Assembly (NCBI RefSeq): GCF_003574625.1
Contig: NZ_QNUJ01000003.1
Location: 124,001-188,000, forward strand
DNA: 64,000 nucleotides
Direction of reading: 5' to 3'
Origin: Shinella zoogloeoides
GTDB lineage: Bacteria; Pseudomonadota; Alphaproteobacteria; Rhizobiales; Rhizobiaceae
Shown one piece after another: positions 43,362 to 52,171 of the stretch (the stretch's first letter is position 1; each line of letters begins with the position of its first letter). Made by a program: the position numbers and the translations under genes. The notes below the pieces were generated by a model. That model was not told the origin of the DNA, searched no databases, and saw only the letters and a list, made by a program, of their open reading frames with translations.

Positions 43362-44414
43362 CTACTTCAGGAATTCGCGATAAGTATCGCCGCCGTCTGC
43401 CTTTGCGGCATAAAGGGCAAGGTCCGCCTTGGTGAAGAGGCTGGTCGGGGTCTCCGCTTCGGCAAAGGCGAAGCCGATGGAGGCGCTGACGCTGAAGACA
43501 TGCCCGGAACAGCTCATCGGCAGCTTGCCGGCATCGACTACCTGCCGCGCGGTGCGCTCGATCGCCTCCCGGCTGCTGGAAGGGCCGAAGAGGATCGCGA
43601 ACTCGTCGCCGCCGATGCGGGCGACCAGTTCGGCGCCCGTGCAGGTCGCGCGGAGCCGCCGGGTGAATTCGATGATGCACTCGTCGCCGAGGGCGTGGCC
43701 GAGCGTGTCGTTGATCTCCTTGAAGCCGTCCAGGTCGACGAGCATCAGCACGCCGCCCGATCCGTCCGGTCCGCACATGTCGGCGAGCCGCATCTGGAAG
43801 CGGGTGCGATTGGCAAGGCCGGTCATCACGTCGTGCTCGGCGAGATGGCGCATGTGATCGAGCATGGTCTTTTCGGCGGTAATGTCCTGCTTGATGCCGA
43901 AAAGCCGGACGGGCTCGCCGTCGCGGCGTTCGACCGTCGCGGAAATCCGTATCCAGCGCCGGCCGAATTCCGGGCTCTCGATCTCCGTGTCCAGTCCGAA
44001 GCCGTCCCCGTTGCGGATCGCCTCGCCACGGATCCTCTGCAGCCGCGCGAGCGAATCCTCGCTGTAGCTTCTGAGGATATCGCCGCGCACCAGGCCGCAA
44101 TTCTGCGGCAGGCCGAAGAGATGGTAGGTGCCGCTGCTCCAGGTCAGCTGCTCGCTGGGCAGTTCGCATTGCCAGGTGCCCATGCCCGCGGCCATGGAGG
44201 CGCGCTCGAAGATGTCGGCGCCGGCAAGCGCCGCCTCGATCCGGCGAGTGAGGGCCGACTGACGCTCGATCTGCCGGCGCAATTCCAGGATCGTCCGGCG
44301 GTCGAAGGGGCCGGCAAGGGTGCGCCGCAGCCGTTCCAGCAGGCCATAGAGCGCCGATTGCGGTGTGGCTTGAGTGTCGGCACTCGGTTGCGCGCTCGTT
44401 GCTGGATTTTCCAT
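43362..44414 (-). CDS. PAS-GGDEF diguanylate cyclase
   Basis: A 350-residue cytoplasmic protein. Residues 20-70 are a helical, Arg/Glu-rich lead-in, about 70-182 a PAS domain (ASMAAGMGTWQCELPSEQLT, IESPEFGRRWIRISATVERR, LFGIKQDITAEK) and 183-350 the GGDEF domain with an intact ARIGGDEFAILFG. The product would be cyclic di-GMP. The inhibitory I-site RxxD is absent at its usual place (TGAE found), so feedback inhibition is not expected. ATG at 44414 preferred over a GTG at 44423. The PAS ligand is unknown. Confidence 0.88.
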   Translation of the reverse strand: MENPATSAQPSADTQATPQSALYGLLERLRRTLAGPFDRRTILELRRQIERQSALTRRIEAALAGADIFERASMAAGMGTWQCELPSEQLTWSSGTYHLFGLPQNCGLVRGDILRSYSEDSLARLQRIRGEAIRNGDGFGLDTEIESPEFGRRWIRISATVERRDGEPVRLFGIKQDITAEKTMLDHMRHLAEHDVMTGLANRTRFQMRLADMCGPDGSGGVLMLVDLDGFKEINDTLGHALGDECIIEFTRRLRATCTGAELVARIGGDEFAILFGPSSSREAIERTARQVVDAGKLPMSCSGHVFSVSASIGFAFAEAETPTSLFTKADLALYAAKADGGDTYREFLK

Positions 44415-44505
44415 CTTCGTCACCGGCTGGTAGCAAGGCCCCTTACAACAAGTCCTAATATGAAAACATTAATCCGAAGTGAGGGCTGCCTTCCCCTTAT
44501 GCCGC

Positions 44506-45192
44506 TCAGCGCGGCAGGTAGCGCGTGAGGCTTGCCTCCAGAAGGCGGATGAGCGTGATGAGGATCAGGTTGATCAGGAGATAGAGCATGCCGGCAATGG
44601 CGAAGATCTCGAGGATCGCGTAGGTCTGGCTCATCAGCCGCTTGGCGTGGCCGGTGATCTCCAGCACGGTGATCGTCGAGGCAAGGCTCGTTCCCTTCAC
44701 CACCAGCACCAGCTCGTTGCCATAGGCGGGCAGCGCCTGGCGGATGGCGAGTGGAAACGCGATGCGGCGGAAGCACAGGAAGCGCGACATGCCGCAGGCC
44801 TGCGCCGCCTCCATCAGGCCGCCGGGAATGGACATGAGGCCGCCGCGCAGGATTTCCGACGTATAGGCTGCCGTGTTGAGCGCCAGCGCCAGAACGGCGC
44901 AGCGCACGCCGTCACCGACGATCCACCAGAGCACCGGATTGTCGCGCACGAAGGAAAGCTGGCCGAGCCCGTAGTAGAAGAGGAAGAGCTGCACGAGCAG
45001 CGGCGTGCCGCGGAAGACCGTGCTGTAGCCCTTGGCGAAGCTGCTCAGCAGCCGGTTCTTCGACAGCCGCATGACCGCGAGCGCCAGCCCGAGATTGAAG
45101 CCCATGGCGACGGAGGCGACGGTCAGCATGGCCGTCAGCCACACGCCCTTGGCAAGCGTCGGCACGGCAAGGCGAACGAGTTCGAGATCCAT
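44506..45192 (-). CDS. polar amino acid ABC transporter permease (HisM/ArtM type)
   Basis: A 228-residue inner-membrane permease with about five helices. Contains the family's GTPLLVQLFLFYYGLGQ and the ATPase-contact EAAQACGMSRFLCFRRIAFP followed by RQALPAYGNELVLVVKGTSL. Last gene of the peptidase-ATPase/binding protein/permease/permease operon; AGGAG lies before its ATG, 3 bp after the HisQ-type stop. Confidence 0.88.
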   Translation of the reverse strand: MDLELVRLAVPTLAKGVWLTAMLTVASVAMGFNLGLALAVMRLSKNRLLSSFAKGYSTVFRGTPLLVQLFLFYYGLGQLSFVRDNPVLWWIVGDGVRCAVLALALNTAAYTSEILRGGLMSIPGGLMEAAQACGMSRFLCFRRIAFPLAIRQALPAYGNELVLVVKGTSLASTITVLEITGHAKRLMSQTYAILEIFAIAGMLYLLINLILITLIRLLEASLTRYLPR

Positions 45193-45195
45193 GGC

Positions 45196-45903
45196 CTAGC
45201 TCCTGTTCTTCGGCTGGAGCAGGCGCTCGATCCGGTCGAAGCCGCCCTGGCTCACCAGCGTGATCGCAAGGTAGACGACGGCGGCGATGAAATAGAAGAT
45301 GAAGGGATGGCGAGTGGAGCCCGCGCCGACGAAGGCCGCGCGCATCAGCTCCTGCAAGCCCACCACAGAGACGAGCGCGGTGTCCTTGATCGTCGTCTGC
45401 CAGACATTGTTCATGCCGGGTACGGCGATCCGCAGCATCTGCGGCGCGATGATGCGGCGGAAGATGCGGCGTCCCGGAATGCCGAGCGCCCGCGCCGCCT
45501 CGATATGGCCGGCCGGGATGGCAGCGAGGGCTCCGCGCACCACCTCGGTCGAATAGGCGCCCGAAATGGAGGCGATGGCGATGACGGCGATGACGAAGGC
45601 ATAGCCGTTGCCGGCTAGCCCCGCATAGCCGAAGGCCGCCGCCACGCGCGCCACGAACTCAACCGAGGAGAAGAAGAGGAGATAGATGATCAGGAGCTCG
45701 GGTACGCCGCGCACGATCGACGTATAGAAGTCGACGACCAGCGTCAGCGGGAAGATCCGCCCCCACTTGATGAGCCCGCAGGCGACGCCGATGACGATGC
45801 CGAAGACCATGCTCGCTATGCCGAGGGCGACCGTGACCGCCGCCCCGCGCAGGATCGCGGCGATCCAGCCGCCCTCCCATACCTGCCAGATTCCCAGTTC
45901 CAT
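45196..45903 (-). CDS. polar amino acid ABC transporter permease (HisQ type)
   Basis: A 235-residue permease, partner of the next gene. Motifs: SIVRGVPELLIIYLLFFSS, YSTEVVRGALAAIPAGHIEA, ARALGIPGRRIFRRIIAPQM and VPGMNNVWQTTIKDTALVSV, as in HisQ/OccQ. Forms a heterodimer channel with the HisM-type subunit. Confidence 0.88.
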   Translation of the reverse strand: MELGIWQVWEGGWIAAILRGAAVTVALGIASMVFGIVIGVACGLIKWGRIFPLTLVVDFYTSIVRGVPELLIIYLLFFSSVEFVARVAAAFGYAGLAGNGYAFVIAVIAIASISGAYSTEVVRGALAAIPAGHIEAARALGIPGRRIFRRIIAPQMLRIAVPGMNNVWQTTIKDTALVSVVGLQELMRAAFVGAGSTRHPFIFYFIAAVVYLAITLVSQGGFDRIERLLQPKNRS

Positions 45904-45977: not shown

Positions 45978-46781
45978 CTACTGCTGACAGGGCCGGGAGA
46001 TGTCCGACTTGAACCAGGTCTGGCTGGCCTTGCCGATGGAACCGTCGGCGACCAGCTCGCAGAGCGCCTTGTCGATACGGGCCTTCAGCTCGGTATTGTC
46101 CTTGGCGATGCCGACGCCGATGCCTTCGCCGAGGGTCGGATCGGAAGAGCTGGCGATCTTGACGTCGACAAGCTGGAAATCCTTGCCGTCGGGCTTGGCG
46201 AGAAAGTCTTCCAGCGCCGACACGTCGGAAAACGCGGTGTCGACGCGGCCGCTGGCCAGGTCGATCTGCATCTGGTCGAGCGTGTCGTAGGTCTTCAGGT
46301 CGGCGTTCGGCACGTTCTTCTCGAGATAGTGCGCGTGGGTGGTACCAGCCTGCACGCCGACCTTCTTGCTGTCGAGCGCCTTGACCAGGCTGTCGAGGTC
46401 CTTGATGCCGGCAAGGTCGGAGCTCTTCGGTGCCACGAACATGTTGGCAAGCTCGGCATAGCCGATAGAGAAGTCGATCTCCTTCTTGCGGTCGTCGGTG
46501 ATCGACATGCCCGAGATGATGACGTCGAAGCGCTTGGCCTTCAGCGCCGGGATGAGGCCGTCGAAGGCCTGCACGACGAACTGGCACTTCACCTCAAGCT
46601 TGGCGCAGAGCAGGTTGCCGACATCGGCGTCGAAGCCGGTGACGTTGCCGGCGGCGTCCGCCATGCTCCATGGCGGGTAGGCGCCTTCCGTTCCGATCGA
46701 CAATTCGCCTTCGGCCGCCCAGACGGCGGTAGTGCCGGCGGCGAAGCACGCGGCGAGCAGCAGGCTTTTCATCAGCTTCAT
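45978..46781 (-). CDS. polar amino acid ABC substrate-binding protein (HisJ/ArgT type)
   Basis: A 267-residue periplasmic protein. Signal peptide to about 20 (MKLMKSLLLAACFAAGTTAV, then WAAEG). SBP_bac_3 features: LSIGTEGAYPPWSMADAAGN, VTGFDADVGNLLCAKL, LIPALKAKRFDVIISGMSIT, KEIDFSIGYAELANMF, KKVGVQAGTTHAHYLEKNVP, DTAFSDVSALEDFLAK and GIGVGIAKDNTELKARID. The Arg that usually grips the ligand carboxylate (R after MS-T) is in a DDRKKE context, as in ArgT. Cysteines near the C-terminus may pair. Start at 46781 with GGGGAA; 46796 is an alternative. Confidence 0.88.
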   Translation of the reverse strand: MKLMKSLLLAACFAAGTTAVWAAEGELSIGTEGAYPPWSMADAAGNVTGFDADVGNLLCAKLEVKCQFVVQAFDGLIPALKAKRFDVIISGMSITDDRKKEIDFSIGYAELANMFVAPKSSDLAGIKDLDSLVKALDSKKVGVQAGTTHAHYLEKNVPNADLKTYDTLDQMQIDLASGRVDTAFSDVSALEDFLAKPDGKDFQLVDVKIASSSDPTLGEGIGVGIAKDNTELKARIDKALCELVADGSIGKASQTWFKSDISRPCQQ

Positions 46782-46824
46782 GTTCTGGTTCCCCATGTTG
46801 AACGTTGTTGTCGGCCGGCGGGCG

Positions 46825-48780
46825 TCAGAGCGTACGGGCCAGGAACTGGCGCATGCGTTCGGAGCGCGGATTGGTGAAGACGTCCGCCGGTGCACCCTCT
46901 TCCTCCACTTTTCCCTGGTGGAGGAAGAGGATCTTGTGCGAAACCTCGCGCGCGAACTGCATTTCGTGCGTCACGAGGATCATCGTATTTCCTTCTTCGG
47001 CCAGCTGCCGGATCACGCGCAGCACCTCGCCGACAAGCTCGGGATCGAGCGCGGAGGTCGGCTCGTCGAGCAGGATGAGTTTTGGGCGCATGGCGAGCGT
47101 GCGGGCGATGGCCGCGCGCTGCTGCTGGCCGCCGGAGAGCTGGCCGGGATATTGGGCGTGCTTTTCGGAAAGGCCGACCTTCTTCAGGAGCGCATGCGCG
47201 TGATCGACGGCGGCCTGCCGCTCTTCCTTCAGCACATGCAGCGGCGCCTCGATGATGTTCTCCAGCACCGTCATGTGCGGCCAGAGATTGAAGTTCTGAA
47301 ACACCATGCCGACCCGCGAGCGGATGCGCTCGACCTGCCGCATGTCGGTCGGCGCGGCATTGCCGTCCGGTGTCTTCTTCATGCGGATTTCCTCGCCGTC
47401 GATGACGACGCGCCCGTCATGCGGCTGTTCCAGCAGGTTGATGCAGCGCAGGAACGTGCTCTTGCCGGAGCCCGAGGAGCCGATCATCGAGACCACTTCG
47501 CCGGGCTGGGCCGTAAGGCTGACACCGTTCAGCACCGAAAGCTGCCCGAAGCGCTTGTGAAGGTCGTGCACTTCCAGCGCCGGACGCTCGCCGGCGCCCG
47601 GATGCACGGTCTCCGCATGGGCGATGACGGCAACCGGCGCGGCGGCGGGGACGGGCTTTTCGGCACCCGCGCCGCCGACGGCCTTGAGATCGGCAAAGGC
47701 GCGGTCGAAATGGCGCAGCGCCGTGGCGAGGCACGTGTTCCGCCAGTCCTCGTCCTCGGGAATGAAGGCGGCGCGCAGCGCCTTCTTGATGCGCTCGCCG
47801 AGCGGCGTGTCCACCTTGCCGTAGAGATGCAGCCAGTTGTCCGCCTGGACGGCCTCGATGACCGTTTCGCCGTTGAGCGTGCCGCATTCCACCACCAGCG
47901 GCAGGACGCGCGCCTTCGGCAGCGCCTTGCGCACGGCGGCCGAAACATAGCCGGTGGCGGTCGCGGCGATGCCCGTGTCGGTCGTCGCGTCCGTGCCGGT
48001 GAGGACGACGGAAAGGGCGGGGCCGAAGATATGCCGCCCCCAGTCGAGACCGGCATGCTCGCCTTCGGCCACCGAGAGGAGGGCCGGATAGCCATAGGGA
48101 CCGGCGCCCGTATGCAGGTCGAAGACGACGACCTCGGACGCCTGCCGGGCGAATGTCGAGAGGATCTCGATGAGCGTGCGGTTGGACCAGACGGGACCGT
48201 CGCCGCCATAGTAGAGGCCGTCCGAAAAGGCATACTGGCCCGCCTCGATCATGGGGGCGAGGCCGGCATAGCCGCCGAAGCGCCGTTTCGCCGCGTCATA
48301 GGCCTCGGCCGCCCGCTCGCGCTCCGGGCCTTCCCAGGTACGCCAGACGACGGCGTCGTGCAGCGTGGCGTAGCGTTCGTTGCGCGGCGGCCCCTTCTGC
48401 CAGTCGATGAAGTTGCGGTTCAGGTCGACATTGTCCTCGTTCACCCTGCGGCTCCAGGCGGTGCCCCAGGGATTGATCAGGTGGATGGCGAGGACGGCGG
48501 TGTCGTCGGGAAGCTGCCAGGGCGTGTTCTGCGAGAGCCAGGCCGTCTGGCAGGCCGAGCCGAAGGAGCCTTCGACGCCATGCGTGCCGGAGATCAGCAC
48601 CAGCAGCTTTGCAGCGTCGGGGCGTCCGAGATAGGCGATGTCGGTCGAAAGCTGCTCGCCGTTCGGCCCGTGCAGAGGATGGGGGTAGGCGACGAGGCTG
48701 GCGCCCGCCTGGCTTGCAGCAGCGAGAAACCGGCTGCGCAGGTCCGAAAAATCGCCGGAAAAGAGGGCGGAAGGGGACAT
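46825..48780 (-). CDS. M14-like metallohydrolase (DUF2817) fused to an amino acid ABC ATPase
   Basis: A 651-residue two-part protein read through in one frame. Residues 1-365 are a DUF2817/M14-type zinc hydrolase: H67 and E70 ([12 protein letters not shown]), substrate-binding R/N region ([16 protein letters not shown]), third zinc ligand H223 ([12 protein letters not shown]) and catalytic E298 ([10 protein letters not shown]). Residues 366-400 are an Ala/Pro/Gly linker. Residues 401-651 are a HisP/GlnQ-type ATPase (Walker [11 protein letters not shown]-loop [33 protein letters not shown], switch H605). Alternative start at 48828. The fusion links hydrolysis of an amide or peptide with import of amino acids. 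Confidence 0.88.
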
Positions 48781-48875
48781 GCGACAGTGCTCCCGGTTGT
48801 CTGTGTGCAGAACTGCTTTGGCGTTCATTCTCATTCCCCTGTGAGGCCGTTGGCCGGCCTGTCTTGGTCTGGTTT

Positions 48876-48903
48876 CAAGGAAGGCGGCTTGCGCCTTTCC
48901 TTG
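48876..48903 (-). terminator. hairpin after the oxygenase-reductase gene
   Basis: A stem of 11 bp with one bulge (CAAGGAA-GGCG paired with CGCCTTTCCTTG) and a 5-nt loop, 37 bp past the reductase stop. No T-tract follows on the minus strand, so termination is uncertain. Confidence 0.4.
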
Positions 48904-48939
48904 CAGGCAATGGGCCCTTTCCCGCAGGCCTCTCCGGCG

Positions 48940-50046
48940 TCAGAGATCGAGCACGATGGAGGATTTCGGGCGGGTGCAGCACAGGAGTACCCGGTCTGCC
49001 GGCATTTCGTCGAGCGGTTCCTCGAAGTAATCCACCTCTCCCGAGACGAGGCCCTGCTCGCAGGTTCCGCAGACGCCCGCCCGGCAGGAGAAGGCGGGCT
49101 CGATCCCCTTCGCCTCCAGGAAGGCGAGGATGGATTCGCTCTTGCCATCCCATGCGAGGCTGCGCCCGGATTTCTGCAGGACGATGCGCAACCCATCGCC
49201 ATCCTCGTCCGCGACCGGCGTGACGGCCGACGGCGTTTCCGGCTGCACCGGCGCCGCGCCGCTCTCCGACAGGAGACTTGCCGGGCCGAAGAATTCGTAG
49301 GCGATGCGTTCCTTGCCGATGCCGAGCCCGGTGAGGATGCCGTAGAGAGCCTGCATGAAGGGCGGCGGCCCGCACATATAGACCTCGTAGTCGTCGAGCG
49401 GCAGAAGGCTCTGGAGCGTCGCGCGGGAGACGAAGCCGGTGGAATGGCAGCGGCCCGCAGCGAGCTCGCCGTCTTTGGCGAAGCGGTAGCAGAAATGCAC
49501 CGATATGCCCGGCCGCAACGCCGCAAGGCGCTCCACTTCGTCGCGCAAGGCATGGACGGCCGCGCCGTCGCAGGCATGGATGAACCAGACCGGGCGATCG
49601 CTTTCCCTCGCCAGCACGTCCAGCATCGAGACCGTCGGCGTGAGCCCGACCCCACCGGACAGGAGCAGGACGGGCCGGCGGCTTGCGGCATCGAGCCGGA
49701 AAGCGCCGCGCGGCGGATCGATCTCCAGCACGGCGCCCGGCTCGATCTCGTCATGCAGCCAGCAGGAGCTCAGCCCTTCCGGCACGTCCTTCGAGGGCGC
49801 TGCCTCGCGCTTCACCGTGATGCGGTAGCTGCCTTCCTCGCGCGGCGATGAGGAGACGGTGTAGTTGCGCAGGACATGTCCGCCCTTGCGGTCGGGAACG
49901 CGCATGGTGAGGAACTGTCCCGCCTCGAACGGCCGCCAATGCTGCCGTTCGAGGGGCGCCAGGCGGAAAGACGTGATGGTGGCGCTTTCGCGCACCTTCG
50001 AAACGACCTCGAAGGGGCGGAAGCGCGAAGCCGCGGCATCGGGCAT
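48940..50046 (-). CDS. ferredoxin-NAD(P)H reductase component of a Rieske oxygenase
   Basis: A 368-residue electron-transfer protein. FAD-binding barrel with RNYTVSS (60-66), NAD(P)-binding domain with SGGVGLTPTVSMLD and CGPPPFMQ, then a C-terminal plant-type [2Fe-2S] domain with C321, C326, C329 (CRAGVCGTC) and C356 or C357 (LLCC). The order FNR-then-ferredoxin is that of VanB-, CntB- and GbcB-like reductases. It lies 13 bp after the oxygenase gene, so it is that enzyme's redox partner. Confidence 0.9.
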   Translation of the reverse strand: MPDAAASRFRPFEVVSKVRESATITSFRLAPLERQHWRPFEAGQFLTMRVPDRKGGHVLRNYTVSSSPREEGSYRITVKREAAPSKDVPEGLSSCWLHDEIEPGAVLEIDPPRGAFRLDAASRRPVLLLSGGVGLTPTVSMLDVLARESDRPVWFIHACDGAAVHALRDEVERLAALRPGISVHFCYRFAKDGELAAGRCHSTGFVSRATLQSLLPLDDYEVYMCGPPPFMQALYGILTGLGIGKERIAYEFFGPASLLSESGAAPVQPETPSAVTPVADEDGDGLRIVLQKSGRSLAWDGKSESILAFLEAKGIEPAFSCRAGVCGTCEQGLVSGEVDYFEEPLDEMPADRVLLCCTRPKSSIVLDL

Positions 50047-50059
50047 CCGGGGTCTATCC

Positions 50060-51106
50060 TTACTCTGCGGCGTCCGCGACGGTGGCGGCCTGCGTCTCGG
50101 CGGCGATCATCTGGGCGAGCTTGCGGCGGAAGCGCATCGGCCCGACATCGATCTTCAGATCGAGATTGGGCGTCTGCATGTTGGCCATGCCGTGATGAAC
50201 CGCTTCCAGCACCACGCGGTCCTCCTCGAAGGCGCCGCGCACGGACTTTGCGAAGCTCGCGGAGACCTTGGCGTCGTCGGGCGCGAAATTGCGCATCTGG
50301 AACCAGTAATACTTGGTGCGGTTCTCATCGACAGGGGTCATGAAGTTGTAGCTGTCCATGAGGAAGGTGTTGTCCGGCAGGTCGCGGCCTTCCCCGCCCG
50401 TGTGGGCCGGCGCGAAGATCGCCTTGATGATGGCATTGCTCGGATAGCGCACCTCGTAGTGCTGCTTGCGGTCGGTATTGCCCTCGAATTGCAGGAAGGG
50501 CGCATAGAAGGGGGCGGGCTCGGAATCGATCATCCAGCGCCAGACGGTCACGCCGTCTTCCTTGACGGTCGTCTCCAGCGGTGTCTCCTCGCAGGCCGAG
50601 CTGGCGAAGGACGACTGGTGCACCCAGGCGACATGGGACGGATCGAGCAGGTTGTCCGTCATGTAGAGATAGTTGCAGTGGAGCATCATGGATTCGCCAC
50701 GGTTGATGCCCCAGGCGGGATCGTCGAAATGCTCGACCTCGAAGATGTCCTTCGGGTCCGCCTTGGCGGCATCCCCCATCCAGATCCACAACAGGCCGTA
50801 GCGCTCGTGAACCGGATAGGACCGCACCTTGGCGACATGCGGGATGCGCTCGGCGCCGGGAACGCGGGTACAGGTGCCCGAACAGTCGAAGGTCAGGCCA
50901 TGATAGCCGCATTCCACGTCGTCACCCTTGATGCGGCCCATGGAGAGCGGCAGCTTGCGATGGGGACAGGCATCTTCCAGTGCGGCGGGCGTGCCGTCCT
51001 GAAGGCGGTAGAGGACGATGTTCTCGCCCAGGATGGTCACGGGTTTCAGTTCGCGGCCGACCTCGTTGTCCCAGGCCGCAACATACCAGGCGTTTTTGAG
51101 AAACAT
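50060..51106 (-). CDS. Rieske non-haem iron oxygenase (VanA-like)
   Basis: A 348-residue oxygenase alpha subunit. Rieske cluster ligands C47-H49 (EDACPHRKLPL) and C66-H69 (VECGYHGLTF). The mononuclear iron ligands are probably H158 and H163 (DNLLDPSHVAWVH), with an acidic ligand near FEEDRVVLEAV. The C-terminal part is of the VanA type, enzymes that usually remove O- or N-methyl groups or oxidise aromatic acids. The start MFLKNAWYVAAW matches this family; AAGGAG precedes the ATG. First gene of an operon with the reductase, divergent from a LysR regulator. Substrate unknown. Confidence 0.88.
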   Translation of the reverse strand: MFLKNAWYVAAWDNEVGRELKPVTILGENIVLYRLQDGTPAALEDACPHRKLPLSMGRIKGDDVECGYHGLTFDCSGTCTRVPGAERIPHVAKVRSYPVHERYGLLWIWMGDAAKADPKDIFEVEHFDDPAWGINRGESMMLHCNYLYMTDNLLDPSHVAWVHQSSFASSACEETPLETTVKEDGVTVWRWMIDSEPAPFYAPFLQFEGNTDRKQHYEVRYPSNAIIKAIFAPAHTGGEGRDLPDNTFLMDSYNFMTPVDENRTKYYWFQMRNFAPDDAKVSASFAKSVRGAFEEDRVVLEAVHHGMANMQTPNLDLKIDVGPMRFRRKLAQMIAAETQAATVADAAE

Positions 51107-51199: not shown

Positions 51200-51226
51200 C
51201 TGCGTCGCTTCCGGAGGAGCTTCACC

Positions 51227-52171
51227 ATGCCGAACCCGTCCCTGCGCGGCCTGCAAGCCTTCGAGGCGATCGGACGGTGCGGCTCGGTCAGCGCGGCGGC
51301 CGAGGACCTCGGCGTTTCGCCCGGCGCGGTGAGCCAGCTGGTTCGCAATCTGGAGCAATGTCTGGGGCTGACGCTGCTGGAGCGGCGCGGCCGGCGGGTC
51401 GAGCTGTCGTCATGGGGGCGGGTGTATTACCGGGAAGTGGCGAAGGGTTTCCAGCAACTTTCCCACGCTGCCGGCGTGCTGACGCGCGCCCGCAACGAGA
51501 CGGGGATCGTGCTGAGCGCGCTGACATCCGTCGCCAACAAGTGGGTCAGCCGCAAGATCTTCGACTGGCAGTCCCTCTGTCCGGAATCGAGCGTGCGCAT
51601 TCTCGGCGAGGAGCAGGAGCCGCGCATCGGCATCGAGCATGTGGATTTCCGCATCACCTACGGCCGGCGCGCGAATGTGCACGAGCATGTCGCCAACCTC
51701 TTCACCGACTGGGTGGTGCCGGCGTGCTCGCCGGCGCTCCTCGCCAACCGGGTTCTCGACTGTCCGCAGGATATCCTCAAATTCCCGCTCCTCAATGTCG
51801 AGTGGGAATCCGACTACAAGGCGTCGCCGCAATGGCGGGACTGGGCACGGCTGATTGACGCCGATGGCAGCCAGACGTTCTCCGGCCTTTCCTTCACCCT
51901 GTCGAGCAGCGCCATCGATGCCGCCGCCAATGGCAGGGGCTTCGTTCTTGCGCAGATCTCCATGGTGCGGGACGAGGTCGCCGCCGGCAGCCTGGTGGTT
52001 CCCTTCGATATCCGCATGAAGCTGCCGGAAAGCTACTATCTTGCCTGGGACCGGGCGGCCCTCGAAAGACCCGTCGGCCAGCGGTTCCACAAATGGCTGC
52101 TGACCATTGGCAGGCAGCAGGACCTGGCCTCCGCGCCGGGCGCCGGTCTGCTCGCGCCCCCGCTCAGTTGA
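51227..52171 (+). CDS. LysR-family regulator, GcvA-like
   Basis: A 314-residue regulator. N-terminal winged helix typical of the GcvA branch (PSLRGLQAFEAIGRCGSVSA, AAEDLGVSPGAVSQLVRNLE, LLERRGRRVELSSWG). The effector domain shows VDFRITYGR and FTLSSSAIDAAANGRGFVLA. The ATG at 51227 has GGAGGAG seven bases upstream. Divergent from the Rieske oxygenase operon and most likely its activator. Its 3' end overlaps the convergent ATPase gene by 8 bp. Confidence 0.88.
   Translation: MPNPSLRGLQAFEAIGRCGSVSAAAEDLGVSPGAVSQLVRNLEQCLGLTLLERRGRRVELSSWGRVYYREVAKGFQQLSHAAGVLTRARNETGIVLSALTSVANKWVSRKIFDWQSLCPESSVRILGEEQEPRIGIEHVDFRITYGRRANVHEHVANLFTDWVVPACSPALLANRVLDCPQDILKFPLLNVEWESDYKASPQWRDWARLIDADGSQTFSGLSFTLSSSAIDAAANGRGFVLAQISMVRDEVAAGSLVVPFDIRMKLPESYYLAWDRAALERPVGQRFHKWLLTIGRQQDLASAPGAGLLAPPLS

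Follow-up and report, generated by a model that had tools for sequence, protein, structure and literature searches.

Does a single gene of the soil bacterium Shinella zoogloeoides join a metallohydrolase to the ATPase of an amino acid importer, and if so, what might a hydrolase do on a transport motor? The gene lies on the minus strand (46825..48780) of the 64,000-nucleotide stretch analysed here (the window). A first-pass annotation, made from the sequence letters, had read it as one uninterrupted frame holding an M14-type zinc hydrolase with H67, E70, H223 and E298 intact and a complete HisP-type ATPase, followed by a binding protein and two permeases. The open frame, Pfam and NCBIfam matches to both halves, the neighbouring genes and homologous fusions in other genomes bear this description out.

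A DUF2817 hydrolase and a HisP-type ATPase in one frame

The frame runs without internal stops from an ATG at 48780 to a stop codon at 46825 (coding positions 46828-48780, 651 codons, 651 aa); a longer version starting at 48834 is possible. The N-terminal half, residues 7-352 (47725..48762, minus strand), matches the M14-like Pfam family DUF2817 (PF10994) with an E-value of 2e-95 and 320.6 bits against a cut-off of 23, over profile positions 1-340 of 341, and is the only DUF2817 match in the window genome. The H67-x-x-E70 motif, H223 and E298 had been placed correctly, and together with the Asn121-Arg122 pair they are invariant in 51/51 fusions (the window and 50 named loci). These four catalytic residues are also invariant across 60 aligned hydrolases, fused and unfused (44 of the 51 fused and 16 of the 28 unfused sequences). 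We take the HxxE motif, the downstream His and the catalytic Glu to play the roles that they have in carboxypeptidases. Sequence matches to solved M14 enzymes are weak (MpaA 5hxd, E = 0.012; REP34 4oko, E = 0.6), as is a profile match to REP34 4oko (E = 0.018); the fold and active site of this half are assigned from its motifs, by which it appears catalytically intact.

The C-terminal half, residues 402-650 (46831..47577, minus strand), is an ABC ATPase with recognizable Walker A, Q-loop, signature, Walker B, D-loop and H-loop motifs, and Pfam ABC_tran covers residues 417-576 of the fusion (E = 1.8e-37). Its alignment to the NCBIfam HisP equivalog (NF007908) spans residues 402-650 and scores 349.2 bits, below the cut-off of 466 bits. 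The Walker A motif, the Q-loop Gln, the LSGGQ core, the Walker B Asp-Glu and the H-loop His are kept in 51/51 fusions bar one ambiguous base, which is the sole odd Walker A lysine (locus L095). Both halves are under purifying selection, with dN/dS in 9 chosen pairs of 0.07-0.19 for the hydrolase and 0.03-0.09 for the ATPase; the short linker between them gives 0.07-0.86.

Conservation of the fusion among Alphaproteobacteria

The first-pass annotation had proposed a search for the same two-domain order in other genomes, and many relatives proved to share it; the refuting condition set there, a lack of homologous fusions elsewhere, is thereby excluded. A 1.89 Mb replicon of the same species carries the fusion at 99% identity. 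Of 20 regions retrieved around family-level matches, 17 have both domains in one frame and 3 do not, and the best 80 of 362 relatives in a scan of named genomes comprise 50 fused and 30 unfused loci; the 20 regions, taken from sampled genomes, and the 80 named loci overlap partly. Because the same-species replicon and many genera carry both domains in one frame, the fusion is confirmed as genuine and conserved. An assembly or base error that joined two neighbouring genes is ruled out by the presence of the join in separate assemblies of many genera; no point in support of such an error was found, and we consider its chance negligible.

Among the best 80 of 362 relatives, 49 of the 50 fused loci are alphaproteobacterial by record title and one (L126) is labelled Proteobacteria only. 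They belong to Shinella, Ensifer, Rhizobium, Agrobacterium, Pararhizobium, Mesorhizobium, Mycoplana, Pseudaminobacter, Paracoccus, Gemmobacter, Cypionkella, Pseudorhodobacter and other Rhizobiales and Rhodobacterales. The 30 unfused loci in this set are all gamma- or betaproteobacterial (Pseudomonas, Burkholderiaceae, Enterobacterales and other Gammaproteobacteria). At the genus level the DUF2817 family occurs in 7/21 sampled genomes, as a fusion in six, including the window, and truncated in one; its frequency is 19/394 genomes in the family sample, 19/397 in the order, 96/385 in the class and 86/398 in the phylum sample. Named plasmids with the hydrolase are found in Shinella, Ensifer, Sinorhizobium, Mesorhizobium, Pararhizobium and Rhizobium. 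Genes of the fused length are annotated in S. zoogloeoides ATCC 19623, R. leguminosarum, S. meliloti LMB1, M. terrae and Shinella HZN7, and the database product name of annotated fusions is 'DUF2817 domain-containing protein' only, a name that hides the ATPase.

Other long DUF2817 frames were considered as fusions of the same kind and rejected: in 14/14 regions the frame extends upstream of the hydrolase, with at most 22 residues after it. These regions are the newly listed over-cut-off matches of the class and phylum samples with frames of at least 599 aa, plus one of 541 aa, a selection that left out sub-cut-off matches with long frames and two weak family-sample fragments (G200 and G174).

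A tree of 95 hydrolase domains (51 fused, 28 unfused and 16 others; the unfused L146 and L157, for which no start was found, were left out) separates the 51 fused sequences from the rest at a branch with support 100/99, which 100% of 200 bootstrap trees contain. Long branches lead to several distant unfused rows, and the fused clade spans Rhizobiaceae, Phyllobacteriaceae and Paracoccaceae. The 14 fused domains sampled in an ATPase tree of 29 rows also form one clade (98/94), next to a group made up of HisP-like paralogs from the window genome itself together with the ATPase of an unfused P. fragi plasmid operon. Derivation of the fused ATPase from that of P. fragi is unsupported, as the fused domains are a clade of their own. 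The simplest reading of the trees would be a single fusion event followed by spread through descent or transfer.

The importer operon and its oxygenase neighbours

On the minus strand of the window the fusion gene is followed by a periplasmic binding protein of the LAO/nopaline-binding type (45978..46796; Pfam SBP_bac_3), whose best solved relatives are NocT, then LAO and OccJ and whose pocket residues agree with this assignment, and by two importer permeases (45196..45903 and 44506..45192; both BPD_transp_1). Fusion and binding protein are 28 bases apart, binding protein and first permease 74, and the two permeases 3. Fusion, binding protein, permease and permease are contiguous in 50/50 fused loci. 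After the permeases the same strand of the window carries a gene for a GGDEF protein (diguanylate cyclase, 43362-44423), which among 20 compared regions is likewise present only in that of the same species.

On the other side of the fusion gene, after a gap of 159 bases, lie a flavin/2Fe-2S reductase (48940..50046, minus strand; Pfam NAD_binding_1, FAD_binding_6 and Fer2, with an NCBIfam GbcB match below the cut-off) and a Rieske oxygenase of VanA_C type (50060..51106, minus strand) that the reductase presumably serves. A divergent LysR-type regulator, GcvA-like, follows on the plus strand (51224..52171; Pfam HTH_1 and LysR_substrate). With neighbour homologues called at an identity of at least 45% (at least 60% for the 11 loci with formaldehyde genes), the fetched stretches of the fused loci contain a Rieske homologue in 48/50 cases, the LysR regulator in 46/50, the reductase in 45/50, a HisC-like aminotransferase in 41/50 and a GlcD-like flavin oxidase in 35/50. 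No Rieske gene stands near the fusion in the fetched stretch of Mycoplana (L097), and the region's gene table for S. meliloti LMB1, possibly incomplete, lists the fusion, importer and flavin oxidase with no oxygenase. In S. meliloti LMB1 the fusion operon (pB, L196 2352-11738) also has a further ABC importer as its neighbour, accompanied by a gamma-glutamyltransferase and an M20 metallopeptidase.

S-(hydroxymethyl)glutathione dehydrogenase (FDH) is encoded in 10/50 fused loci and the synthase Gfa in 9/50, with either present in 11/50; they lie downstream of the operon in Ensifer and upstream in Gemmobacter and relatives. Neither was found in 39/50 fused loci as fetched, some of which end at contig ends (e.g. 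L120). The window oxygenase carries the Rieske and VanA_C domains characteristic of Rieske O/N-demethylases, and its best solved relatives are 7qwt (GdmA) and the dicamba O-demethylase DdmC. The available text of PMC12445004 tabulates 7qwt as GdmA and names dicamba O-demethylation and caffeine N-demethylation. Because enzymes of formaldehyde metabolism stand beside such an oxygenase, the gene order suggests that it may perform a demethylation. Rieske oxygenase and reductase, with the aminotransferase and formaldehyde enzymes of relatives, none of which the first-pass annotation listed, suggest a catabolic route that includes a demethylation.

The window's own copy of this cluster is reduced. 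It holds no homologue of the HisC-like aminotransferase, the flavin oxidase, FDH or Gfa, and the best matches elsewhere in the window genome are distant (HisC 33%, flavin oxidase 48%, Gfa 27%, the last partial). On the plasmid of Shinella HZN7 a short 'hypothetical protein' (L199 11774-11944) occupies the place of the relatives' aminotransferase, where the window has only 159 bases (48781-48939). The aminotransferase was possibly lost in Shinella.

Unfused and truncated relatives

On a P. fragi plasmid (L077) binding protein, permeases, ATPase, DUF2817 hydrolase, Rieske oxygenase and reductase are encoded by separate genes. Identities to the window are 49% for the hydrolase, 65% for the oxygenase, 50% for the reductase and 60% for the ATPase, but only 35% for the binding protein. 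As the binding proteins are so divergent, two lineages have an amino acid importer beside these enzymes. The P. fragi-type ATPase is nearby in only 5/30 unfused loci. In Paraburkholderia the oxygenase and reductase genes precede that of the hydrolase; a related binding protein is encoded a few genes upstream, and the opposite strand carries a transporter that seems to be of another kind. Plasmids of Pantoea (L078 10050-10823) and Klebsiella (L079 10062-10835) have a 2OG-Fe(II) oxygenase adjoining the hydrolase in place of the Rieske gene, HalD-like in Pantoea, and the binding protein directly before the hydrolase.

A truncated copy occurs within the species itself. In S. zoogloeoides XJ20 (NZ_CP093531.1, L081 8992-10188) the fusion ends in the linker, leaving a hydrolase of 398 residues that is accompanied by oxygenase, reductase and aminotransferase and lacks the transporter. 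The next genes, on the opposite strand, include a sugar-type ABC system, and the closest match to the binding protein in the XJ20 genome is only 40% identical. Since this strain keeps the hydrolase with its enzyme neighbours and without the transporter, the tether is dispensable there.

The binding protein and its likely cargo

Residues E11, Y14, S72, R77, Q117 and D161 of the binding protein (LAO numbering) are invariant in 50/50 fused loci. According to the available text of PMC4192606, Ser72 and Asp161 of LAO and HisJ hold the alpha-amine of the ligand and Arg77 its carboxylate, while in NocT the side chain of arginine is bound by Glu36 and Gln165. Our own alignment pairs position 117 with NocT Gln165. 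The head-group equivalents Ser72, Arg77 and Asp161 of the LAO/HisJ type are thus present in 50/50 fused loci, and because Glu11 and Gln117 are kept as well, the pocket favours, not decisively, a cargo that is a free alpha-amino acid and whose side chain is cationic or polar. The protein narrowly misses the cut-off of the LAO subfamily TIGR01096 (247.4 against 256.35 bits).

The pocket argument falls short of decisive because OccJ N202D, which combines the substituted Asp with its native Ser, still binds octopine, an opine with a substituted alpha-amine, at nanomolar strength, as given in the available part of PMC5740067. The same part reports that LAO, itself with Ser and Asp, binds none of the opines tested. 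An octopine-type opine therefore stays among the candidate cargoes. Nopaline is unlikely: the NocT signature Gly97/His170/Ser207 (three of the four signature places) reads Ser, His and Asp in 50/50 fused loci, and in NocT a Ser at 97 abolished nopaline binding, as the accessible portion of PMC5740067 states. The first-pass suggestion that the importer takes up an N-acyl amino acid is made less likely, again not decisively, by the presence in 50/50 fused loci of the Ser72 and Asp161 equivalents that hold an alpha-amine.

Within these limits the identity of the cargo is a guess. One guess is methylated histidine or anserine, on which a literature search gave nothing useful; it is retained as no more than one guess because the Enterobacterales version has a HalD-like 2OG-Fe(II) oxygenase rather than a Rieske enzyme. 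HalD-like 2OG-Fe(II) oxygenases are known to act on free lysine. The gamma-glutamyltransferase beside the S. meliloti LMB1 operon is a possible hint of a gamma-glutamyl conjugate. We guess that the bond cut is a side-chain amide or a conjugate.

Linker, proposed mechanism and alternatives

The two halves are joined by a variable Ala/Pro-rich linker, identified from alignment and composition, with its core at residues 369-399 (47584..47676, minus strand). Between positions 353 and 402 its length is 38-58 residues across fusions, and it contains 22% Ala and 13% Pro. Mean pairwise identity is 21% in the linker core against 70% in the hydrolase and 84% in the ATPase. From these properties the linker looks like a tether.

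We propose that the locus encodes a polar amino acid importer whose ATPase carries a tethered, active M14-like zinc hydrolase as the first catabolic enzyme, and we put the probability of this reading at roughly 0.45. The hydrolase would sit on a flexible N-terminal tether of the importer ATPase. Judging from the protein families, both ATPase and zinc hydrolase would be active, and the ATPase would form its usual homodimer, placing two hydrolase domains per transporter on the cytoplasmic side, next to the channel exit. What the periplasmic protein captures would be an amino acid, in all likelihood one whose alpha-amine is free and whose side chain is cationic or polar and probably modified; the importer would bring it in and the tethered hydrolase would cut an amide-type bond. 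The product would then pass on, usually to the Rieske oxygenase, which by its family would remove a methyl group as formaldehyde. In this scheme the substrate, the bond, the order of the steps and selection for the tether rather than for mere co-production are guesses.

The first-pass annotation had offered two roles for the hydrolase, hydrolysis of incoming cargo at the channel exit and regulation of transport by the cargo. Hydrolysis near the channel exit is plausible. A further claim, that the motor's hydrolase must act on an incoming amino acid conjugate and thereby couples uptake to the first chemistry, strikes us as doubtful; if true, it would amount to metabolic trapping at the channel exit. 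We know of no ABC importer for which coupling of uptake to the first chemical step has been described.

The main rival to the tethered catabolic enzyme is a fusion of convenience, in which both domains work but the join fixes only equal production and co-inheritance, the hydrolase gaining nothing from the transporter. This is a real, if lesser, possibility. A long, variable and weakly conserved linker fits it, as do the XJ20 strain, whose copy keeps the hydrolase and some of the linker although the transporter is missing, and the separate proteins of the gamma- and betaproteobacterial relatives. On the other hand, linker length is confined to 38-58 residues, and none of the 51 fused tree rows (the truncated XJ20 copy lies outside that tree) has separated again, though the clade spans three families. 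The hydrolase fold might instead be a regulatory domain that switches the ATPase off on sensing substrate or product in the cytoplasm. C-terminal domains of MetN, ModC and MalK regulate importer ATPases in this way (trans-inhibition), and the hydrolase is attached to the same subunit that bears those domains. All four catalytic residues are nevertheless kept in 51/51 fusions and in the aligned unfused relatives, free-standing homologues adjoin the same type of oxygenase, and so variable a linker is more in keeping with a tether than with a rigid switch; control of transport by the cargo is thus the less likely of the two first-pass roles, and we regard a regulatory domain as improbable.

Much the same can be said of the idea that the frame yields two proteins in practice, through a post-translational cut or internal initiation, so that some transporters would have no hydrolase or only one. 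Besides the variability of the linker, the argument for it comes from a scan for internal starts that covered residues 368-436 in 51 fusions. A GTG at residue 404, just ahead of the ATPase, is present in 18/51 (with a Shine-Dalgarno (SD)-like site in one of them), and might conceivably give a free ATPase; an ATG at residue 432 has an SD-like site in 25/51. Upstream of residue 420, however, a start codon with an SD-like site recurs in at most 1/51 fusions. The GTG at residue 416 is found in 35/51, none with an SD-like site, and that at residue 420 has an SD-like site in 5/51. Initiation at residue 416 or later would lose the first strand and the A-loop region and would be expected to leave a damaged ATPase. 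We hold production as two proteins to be unlikely.

Relation to known systems

Importer ATPases are known to carry regulatory add-ons; we know of no characterised importer ATPase with a built-in enzyme. An exact-term search of the open literature, weak as evidence of absence, found no description of an enzyme fused to an importer ATPase, and a search of the same kind found no biochemistry or functional study of DUF2817, turning up instead work on trypanosomatid transcription. The tethered hydrolase is not categorically new, since each half belongs to a known family and peptidase domains on ABC exporters (PCATs) already exist. The PCAT peptidase is an N-terminal C39 cysteine peptidase with the membrane domain in the same chain; Pfam finds neither a C39 nor a membrane domain in the fusion, which is thus no PCAT. 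As the available text of PMC6959990 describes them, PCATs likewise build a hydrolase domain into an ABC transporter, but they are exporters that cut off a secretion signal, whereas here a hydrolase of zinc type stands on the separate ATPase of an importer.

With the HisQMP-HisJ and LAO (ArgT) importers the system shares the layout of periplasmic protein, two permeases and HisP-type ATPase; it differs in the added N-terminal metallohydrolase and in the HisP score of 349.2 against 466 bits. The NocT/OccJ opine importers of Agrobacterium include the best solved relative of the binding protein, NocT, and the Glu, Gln and His of the NocT pocket are kept, but where the nopaline signature has Gly97 and Ser207 the fused loci carry Ser and Asp. 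Ectoine utilization combines the polar amino acid importer EhuABCD and the M14-like deacetylase EutE/DoeB in one pathway as separate proteins; the window importer does not reach the NCBIfam cut-offs of EhuA and EhuB.

The fusion offers a clean test system for the physical coupling of uptake and first metabolism in an ABC importer, because three alphaproteobacterial families conserve it, unfused and truncated versions occur in nature, and the operon around it is simple. It could give DUF2817 a first substrate, and a built-in hydrolase might let the cell break down food at the point of entry. The P. fragi plasmid cluster has like parts (importer, DUF2817, Rieske oxygenase and reductase), but these are unfused and the importer belongs to another branch. 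The fusion-bearing genome G330 has a second DUF2817 gene, distant at 39% identity (L050 8010-12804), where it is unfused and divergent to an importer with the gene order binding protein, permease, permease, ATPase.
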